NCBI RefSeq assembly: GCF_019063845.1
Contig: NZ_CP077683.1
Location: 1,860,001-1,924,000, forward strand
DNA: 64,000 bases
Reading direction: 5' to 3'
Origin: Geomonas subterranea
Lineage (GTDB): Bacteria > Desulfobacterota > Desulfuromonadia > Geobacterales > Geobacteraceae
A program made the translations under genes and the position numbers. This document shows, piece by piece, positions 18,949-23,900 of the stretch. The notes beneath the pieces were generated by a model, which did not search any database, had not been told where the DNA came from, and saw nothing but the letters and a program-made list of their open reading frames with translations. Position 1 is the stretch's first letter, and every line of letters starts with the position of its first letter.

Positions 18949-19095
18949 TCATTCCAGCATCTCGGTGAGTATCGCGTCCAGACTCTTTCCCTCATAGAGA
19001 CTTTCCAGTAACTTGTGCAGGGTGGTCTGGATGCCTTTGTACTGGCAGTTTGCTACCAGCTGGTTCTCAAGGATCTGCAGTTGGTCCCTCGTCAT
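18949..19095 (-). CDS. 48-residue helical protein upstream of a sensor kinase
   Basis: A short frame from ATG 19095, with a strong ribosome-binding site GGAGGTG, encodes 48 residues (MTRDQLQILENQLVANCQYK...). The product is amphipathic and mostly helical, with one Cys at 18 and an acidic C-terminus. It ends 61 bases before the kinase start on the same strand, so it is probably the first gene of the kinase-receiver operon. I recognise no family. Possible roles as a kinase modulator are only suggested by position. Confidence 0.6.
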   Translation of the reverse strand: MTRDQLQILENQLVANCQYKGIQTTLHKLLESLYEGKSLDAILTEMLE

Positions 19096-19194: not shown

Positions 19195-19641
19195 TCATTT
19201 CCTCTCCAGCGAACGCCGAAACCAGGAGAGCACCGCCTCGGCCGACTGCGCGCCGGACAGCTGCTCCACAGATTTACCCCCGCGCAGCAGATGCAGCACC
19301 GGGATGCCGCGCACCCCGAAACGCGCCGACAGCGCCGGGCTTTGATCCGTGTTGACCTGTACCACCGCGGCCTCCCCGGCCAGTAGCGCCGCCACCTTTC
19401 GCACCGCCGGTGCGAATGACAGGCAATGCGGTCACCAGGGGGCCCAGAACTCGGCGAGCACGGGCCCCGGGTAGGAGGCGATGAAAGCGTCGAAACCGGC
19501 GTCATCCAGTTCGCGGGGGGTGCTGTAGAGAGGGGGAAGTTTGGCGCGGCAGTTGCCGCATCGCCCGGCCACCCCCTCCTTGTCGGCGGGGATGCGGTTC
19601 GCGGCGCCGCAACGGGGACATTTGAGTTGGAAGGATGTCAT
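19195..19641 (-). CDS. Selenocysteine-containing thioredoxin (TrxC-like, UPHC active site)
   Basis: Read through one in-frame UGA (19432-19434), this encodes a 148-residue thioredoxin 2-type protein. Residues 8-34 form a zinc ribbon with CPRC and CGNC. The thioredoxin fold follows, with LAEFWAPW, then UGA at residue 70, Pro, His, Cys73, exactly where WAPWCGPC stands in ordinary thioredoxins. After the UGA the same frame continues with FAPAVRKVAALL, the VVQVNTDQ strand and the cis-proline GIPVLHLL, ending in a normal C-terminal helix. A perfect 8-bp hairpin starts 15 bases after the UGA, at bacterial SECIS distance. AAAGGAGG precedes the ATG. Gene callers would split or truncate this gene. A nonsense mutation is the alternative, but its position at the redox residue makes selenocysteine far more likely. 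Confidence 0.88.
19398..19416 (-). promoter_or_regulatory. Candidate bacterial SECIS hairpin
   Basis: On the minus strand TTCGCACC and GGTGCGAA pair perfectly around GGC (or a five-base CGGCG loop if the top pair opens). It begins 15 bases downstream of the UGA at 19432-19434, with G in the apical loop. Bacterial SECIS elements lie just after the UGA and need a small loop with a G. Confidence 0.75.
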
Positions 19642-20077
19642 ATCTGCCTCCTTTGGGAATTTCGACTGCAGAATTCTACCATCCACCCAGCCATCCATCA
19701 CGCTACTATCGTTCGCGATGTCCACGAAGCGTGACCAGTGAACGGAAAGTTCTCGCTGCCAGCTTGTCCCCCCTCCCGGCCTCCCCCTCCGGGGGGAGGG
19801 GCGCGGCCCGACCGGTGTACTGTAGGGGCGAATGATCATTCGCCCGCCTTCGATTAAAGTGGACGGGCACCTGAGGAGCCAAACACGGAATGCAGAGGGA
19901 AACCTCCCTTTGACGCCCCCCTCCCGCAAGAGGAGGGGGACTAAGGGCGACCTTTTCCAGGAATACTCCGATCACCCACGCAAAGGGGGAAAGGTAACAG
20001 CGTCGTCGCGTCCTTCGGCGGACCGCGCAACCCCGACTTTCAGGAAGACCCTTTCGTTTCCGCCCACGATTCTGCGT
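19642..20077. other. Repeat-rich intergenic region
   Basis: No gene is supported. It holds a CCCCTCCGGGGGGAGGGG inverted repeat near 19785-19801, a perfect 20-bp palindrome at 19826-19845, and a further GC-rich inverted repeat around 19915-19945 (CCCCTCCCGCAAGAGGAGGGG). Confidence 0.55.
19826..19845. repeat. 20-bp perfect palindrome of the TGTAGGGGC hairpin family
   Basis: GGGCGAATGATCATTCGCCC is its own reverse complement and is preceded by TGTAG. A related hairpin occurs at 28837-28856. Confidence 0.8.
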
Positions 20078-23630: not shown

Positions 23631-23674
23631 GTGACTCCTTCGCGGTCGCCCCATCCCGCTCATCTCCGGGAGAA

Positions 23675-23860
23675 GGTGCCCGCAGGGAGGGTAAGGGAGC
23701 TGCTGTTATGGTGCTCTTCCTTGCGGCGCCCTCACCCCGACCCTCTCCCAAAGGGAGAGGGCGAAGCTGGAGGGTGCCAGCAGGGAGGATGAGGGAGCTG
23801 CTGTTCTGGTGCTCTTTATTTGCGGCGCCCTCACCCCACCCCTCTCCCAAAGGGAGAGGG
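23675..23860. repeat. Two tandem copies of a 98-bp-period element with inverted repeats
   Basis: The stretch 23675-23761 recurs at 23773-23860 with few differences. Each copy starts GGTGCC and ends in CCCTCTCCCAAAGGGAGAGGG, a hairpin. Related GGGAGAGGG elements occur near 28695, 28790 and 49510. Confidence 0.85.
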
Positions 23861-23900
23861 AGGAACTGGAACACAGCACTGCTTCAGAAAAACAAAAAAC

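Follow-up and report, generated by a model that had tools for sequence, protein, structure and literature searches.

A thioredoxin 2 gene with a conserved in-frame UGA and a SECIS-type hairpin: a probable selenoprotein of Geomonas subterranea and its relatives

Results and Discussion

A thioredoxin 2 reading frame with a single internal UGA

The window analyzed here is a stretch of 64,000 nucleotides from the genome of Geomonas subterranea, a single contig of 4,991,523 bases. On the minus strand of the window, a frame that runs from an ATG at 19641 to a TGA at 19195 has one interruption only, a TGA at codon 70, where a thioredoxin would have its first catalytic Cys. An earlier note on this DNA had read the two abutting minus-strand open reading frames as one frame split by this codon, and our analysis confirmed that what a plain ORF call divides in two is a single gene. 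The note also expected automatic annotation to report a 69-residue stub and a start-less remainder; the mechanical ORF list differs from this, with an N-terminal part of 165 amino acids starting at an upstream TTG and a C-terminal part of 69 amino acids starting at a GTG. The features of the locus are collected in Table 1.

Table 1. Features of the thioredoxin 2 locus (window coordinates)
Feature	Position	Strand	Basis or remark
Probable Sec-thioredoxin 2 gene, 148 codons plus TGA stop	19195..19641	-	Reading frame, homologues, Pfam and NCBIfam matches
Shine-Dalgarno-like AAAGGAGG	19647..19654	-	5 nt upstream of the ATG, seen directly
Zinc ribbon CPRC...CGNC (Cys 8, 11, 28, 31)	19549..19620	-	Pfam PF21352 and sequence
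Thioredoxin domain, residues 44-141	19219..19512	-	Pfam PF00085
Redox motif U-P-H-C, residues 70-73	19423..19434	-	Sequence
In-frame UGA codon, putative Sec70	19432..19434	-	Sequence; common to 38 of 48 family genomes
Putative bacterial SECIS UUCGCACC-GGC-GGUGCGAA, 8-pair stem, 3-nt loop	19398..19416	-	Conserved pairing
Pro114 of G-I-P	19300..19302	-	Sequence; cis-proline of the thioredoxin fold by homology

The N-terminal part contains the TrxC-like zinc ribbon and the WAPW stretch described in the earlier note, and the ribbon passes the Pfam Zn_ribbon_Thio2 model narrowly (E = 3.6e-6; 27.2 bits against a cut-off of 27.1). The UGA is followed by Pro-His-Cys and the rest of a thioredoxin fold, likewise as described: with the TGA taken as a residue, the Pfam thioredoxin domain matches at E = 5.2e-23 (81.5 bits against a cut-off of 23.5), and Pro114 is presumably in the cis state that is typical of the thioredoxin family. 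The NCBIfam TrxC model spans residues 6 to 146, i.e., both sides of the UGA, at 102.1 bits, which misses its cut-off of 125. The protein is of the Trx2 type and falls short of the TrxC equivalog class. Its PDB relatives across most of the length include the thioredoxin-2 entries 2ppt and 7d6l, with which it has the zinc ribbon and the thioredoxin domain in common, whereas its active site reads W-A-P-W-U-P-H-C in place of the CGPC of TrxC. In a scan of named genomes, the closest were those of Geomonas species, the top five being 84-89% identical downstream of the UGA. The host genome also encodes a thioredoxin with a CAPC motif, so the putative Sec-thioredoxin 2 is not the only thioredoxin of this organism.

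The UGA is conserved at the same position among relatives

With the aim of assessing conservation, we searched 48 genomes of the family, all of which gave some match at E 0.001, and counted copies with the TGA as orthologues. Such an orthologue occurs in 38 genomes as 40 copies (two each in G006 and G007), and in every copy the TGA precedes Pro-His-Cys. Two copies are cut by contig ends (G001 and G031), and one has extra stops (L041, from G004). The 48-genome search returned no Cys match spanning both the ribbon and the active site. In the other 10 genomes (G002, G005, G026, G034, G039, and G042-G046) the matches begin at query residue 41 or later, indicating that the ribbon is missing there. 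Since completeness is 90% or more and contamination 5% or less in three of these genomes (G002, G044, and G046), true loss is likely and the gene seems dispensable. Four loci (L039, L041, L078, and L118) form a sub-branch in which the Trp before the putative Sec is replaced by Thr (WAPT or WSPT before UPHC), and both G006 and G007 have one copy of this type beside a WAPW copy.

A broader sample of 395 genomes from the phylum yielded 82 with a match at E 1e-24. U-P-H-C was seen in six of these genomes, all from Geobacterales, the order of the window genome. Among the phylum-sample matches, we read 24 Cys-type zinc-ribbon homologues from outside the order, of which 20 have CGPC and one each has CPSC, CGVC, CGHC, and CGAC. 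The named-genome scan gave 40 loci, 34 with TGA and 6 with Cys; its patterns contained PHC or a second stretch and are therefore biased toward P-H motifs, with no bias toward Sec over Cys. Inspection of residue 70 in TrxC homologues, a check proposed in the earlier note, returned TGA in 38 of the 48 family genomes and Cys in 6 of the 40 named-genome loci and in the 24 homologues read from outside the order. None of 47 pattern matches in viral contigs was a relative, and 12 plasmid records all had less than 60% identity, 10 of them being annotated and named thioredoxins.

The earlier note had also proposed looking for selA, selB, selC, and selD, and all four components were found in the host genome: a tRNA-Sec at C1:563471 (73 bits; anticodon tca, ARAGORN), SelA (600.3 bits), SelB (395.7 bits), and SelD (360 bits), whose own gene contains one in-frame TGA. 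Across the 48 family genomes, SelB was above its cut-off in 43, tRNA-Sec in 41, and SelD in 46.

A SECIS-type hairpin lies just downstream of the UGA

A 19-nt hairpin is located at +18 to +36, counted from the U of the UGA, and takes the form UUCGCACC-GGY-GGUGCGAA across loci. Among 43 loci, all eight pairs form in 37, seven in 5, and six in 1; with named genomes added (77 TGA-PHC loci, 55 of them distinct), the corresponding numbers for distinct loci are 49, 5, and 1. In 54 of these 55, none of the six core pairs is broken, and G is the first loop nucleotide in all 55. Overall, 98.4% of the pairs are formed in the distinct loci; shifting one arm by 1-3 nt lowers this value to 36-62%. Compensatory changes were observed within the set of 43 at three pairs, namely +20/+34 (C-G to U-A, four loci), +18/+36 (U-A to C-G, three loci), and +19/+35 (U-A to A-U, one locus). 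In addition, the three fourfold codons within the hairpin are nearly invariant (Ala GCA in 53 of 55 loci, Pro CCG and Val GTG in 55 of 55), with third-position entropies of 0.23, 0, and 0 bits, compared with 1.02-1.94 bits and mixed codons at the 15 fourfold sites outside the hairpin that satisfy the same rule. At this site, 0-5 of the eight pairs form in the 24 Cys homologues that lie outside the order.

Taken singly, the sequences are less striking. A 55-nt stretch of the window gave a folding z of -1.40, with 21 of 200 shuffles as good, which is not outstanding; the predicted minimum structure differs from the hairpin described here in some of the 43 loci; and when synonymous codons are resampled gene by gene, 1-16% of the draws pair as well as the real sequence. 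The loci are related rather than independent, we assign them no joint probability, and the case rests on the set of related genes. This comparison indicates that the hairpin is under selection at the RNA level. As a conserved hairpin just downstream of the UGA, it would qualify as a SECIS and is a putative SelB site.

Bacterial SECIS elements of the fdhF type are stem-loops located just behind the UGA. In general plan, the candidate element shares this placement and the G that starts the loop, and is set apart by its eight-pair stem and three-nucleotide loop.

Cysteine orthologues are nested within the Sec clade

Six orthologues in named genomes have Cys instead of the putative Sec, as CPHC in L106, L109, L112, L117, and L133 and as CTHC in L121. 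We placed them in a tree of 147 columns and 83 distinct rows (104 before copies were removed), which left out L119 and L085 as too short, L041 for its extra stops, and L062 and L065, not yet recognized at that point, and which kept L105, which comes from a MAG and contains an internal stop. The Sec rows and the six Cys rows together make up one side of a branch with support of 99/96. Within it, the Cys rows are nested in two places: five adjoin the Sec rows L103 and L105 (99/93), and L117 groups with two Sec rows named Oryzomonas or Geobacter (99/92). Given that Cys-type homologues lie outside the Sec clade, this arrangement points to one gain of Sec followed by two reversals, counts alone being unable to separate gain from loss.

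The hairpin has decayed along with the codon in most of these genes. Five of the eight pairs remain in L106, L109, and L133, and seven in L112 and L121, where one core pair is broken. The first loop G is gone and the core is broken in all Cys orthologues except L117; a broken core occurs in 1 of the 55 Sec loci. L117 has all eight pairs and the GGC loop beside a TGT codon; either it reverted very recently, or the TGT reflects base calling in a MAG. SelB and tRNA-Sec are kept in all six Cys-orthologue genomes (12 genomes were searched, and 11 had each), so the genomes of the CPHC revertants retain the Sec machinery. Collectively, the CGPC relatives, the UPHC proteins, and the CPHC revertants with their decaying hairpins form a natural series in which the benefit of Sec to a thioredoxin could be studied. 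A 2006 survey, in the parts available to us, reports Sec-to-Cys changes in four families only, and its Table 1 shows none for thioredoxin (PMC1794560); later work may differ.

A second set of Sec-type thioredoxin 2 genes has UGHC and a different hairpin

Outside Geobacterales, eight loci (L062, L065, L141-L145, and L147) have a TGA at the same residue, within U-G-H-C in seven and U-G-Y-C in one; two of the eight had come already from the phylum sample. In the order of genome G143, a search at E 1e-20 gave matches in 33 of 46 genomes. The hairpin of this set lies at +24 to +42 (CCGGUUC-UGGAY-GAACUGG) and forms 7 of 7 pairs in all eight loci, compared with 5 and 4 of 7 in two Cys relatives. L147 has one more in-frame TGA. 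A test of one origin for the UPHC and UGHC sets gave p-AU 0.647 with two second-set rows, the tree that held the sets together being the likelier, and p-AU 0.462 with seven. A later row set than that of the 83-row tree left out the long rows L061 and L064 and did not include L145, L146, and L148. The difference in hairpin position between the two sets leans toward two origins.

The UGA is very probably decoded as selenocysteine

The comparative evidence for Sec decoding is strong: across relatives, the UGA is kept within a coding frame, and Cys substitutes where the TGA is missing. We therefore consider it very probable that the gene encodes a 148-residue thioredoxin 2 with Sec as the nucleophilic active-site residue, decoded via SelB and the hairpin. 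The reading of the UGA as Sec in a UPHC site, put forward in the earlier note, thus gains support from the Sec machinery, the conservation of orthologues, and the SECIS-type hairpin. In the mechanism that we propose from sequence comparison, SelB carrying Sec-tRNA-Sec would bind the hairpin just 3' of the UGA and insert Sec at codon 70. By analogy with thioredoxin chemistry, the selenolate of Sec70 would then attack disulfides or other oxidized substrates, and Cys73 would resolve the mixed selenosulfide. The P-H dipeptide may tune the active site, whose redox potential may be altered, as the earlier note suggested, and the zinc ribbon is that of the Trx2 family.

No partner gene conserved across the clade was found, which makes a role as a general reductant likelier than a partner-specific one. 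A different function is possible, if rather unlikely: Sec70 may be real and the UPHC protein an oxidase or isomerase with a DsbA-like P-H, or a handler of peroxide or selenium, rather than a disulfide reductant. This alternative bears on function alone and leaves Sec decoding untouched. Against it, zinc-ribbon Trx2 proteins act as reductants, visual inspection showed no signal peptide in the window protein, and no conserved partner gene was found. In its favor, P-H occurs in a Sec clade whose Cys homologues outside the order mostly have CGPC (20 of 24), and CPHC is named, in the accessible text of one study, as a DsbA motif put into thioredoxin (PMC3526497). The window protein resembles DsbA in having P-H between its redox residues, a likeness of motif only, and differs in its zinc-ribbon thioredoxin domain and in the Sec that would replace the first Cys.

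Alternatively, the codon could be a true stop behind a functional 69-residue zinc ribbon, or be read through by a non-Sec tRNA, as near-cognate tRNAs are able to do at UGA codons in bacteria. We regard this as highly improbable, given that the downstream half retains Cys73 and the thioredoxin residues (seven sequences), that the hairpin closely follows the UGA in a genome with tRNA-Sec and SelB, and that all 6 of the 40 named-genome loci without TGA have Cys at that position. That a former CPHC thioredoxin acquired the UGA by nonsense mutation, or that the codon is a sequencing error to be corrected to TGC or TGT, as the earlier note had allowed, deserves hardly any credence: an in-frame UGA does look like such a mutation, and the draft-genome orthologue L041 has further stops, but the same codon stands at the same place in 37 other family genomes and in 34 of 40 named-genome loci, both halves are conserved, and synonymous sites are constrained downstream of it.

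With Sec decoding as the preferred reading, we also raise a more speculative idea, which we hold to be doubtful at present. The gain of Sec in Trx2 may have been coupled to a His before the resolving Cys (UPHC, and UGHC in 7 of 8 loci), tuning the selenosulfide potential beyond the CGPC context, with the His kept after later loss of Sec (CPHC and CTHC). If true, this coupling would allow the 'vicinal residue' notion of how Sec is acquired, which appears in the consulted text of the 2006 survey (PMC1794560), to be tested in a small soluble protein.

Relation to known selenoproteins

In its relevant part, that survey (PMC1794560, 2006) names a thioredoxin as one of the selenoproteins of G. metallireducens, G. 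sulfurreducens, and G. uraniumreducens, and a later study (PMC1914089, 2007), in the text available, gives GSU3446 as the example for a thioredoxin TGA cluster of three members. A UxxC thioredoxin family is also listed in the available portions of PMC9312934 and PMC13188914. The window gene is thus new, while its kind is already known. It resembles the Geobacter proteins, as listed, in having a UGA for a putative Sec in a thioredoxin; the zinc ribbon and UPHC motif are reported here for the window gene. We did not find UPHC in the selenoprotein literature, in a search that was not exhaustive, so other work may have it. Within the records that could be consulted, no literature on a zinc-ribbon or TrxC-type thioredoxin 2 selenoprotein was found, and none of the matches listed for selenocysteine-containing thioredoxin was a bacterial Sec thioredoxin by title. 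Less expected were the switch from CGPC to UPHC, the apparent two Sec-to-Cys reversals, and the UGHC set with its different hairpin.

Neighborhood and local sequence

Only near relatives share neighbors with the window gene: these recur at roughly 8 to 14 of 46 loci, and the loci include duplicate fetches. Similarly, clustering of neighbors across the 40 named-genome loci revealed none conserved clade-wide, the largest clusters being the gene itself or overlapping frames. A scan for promoters and terminators gave no terminator and a single promoter-like site, downstream of the gene, and no repeats were found at 19641-19960. The promoter-like site precedes a 48-residue ORF (18949-19095, minus strand) that lies behind the thioredoxin gene and has matches at 9 of 46 loci; two or more of these 9 are one place that was fetched twice. 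Elsewhere in the window, positions 23672-23870 hold two head-to-tail units of ~99 bp, 89-90% alike over their matched parts, with CCCTCTCCCAAAGGGAGAGGG palindromes.
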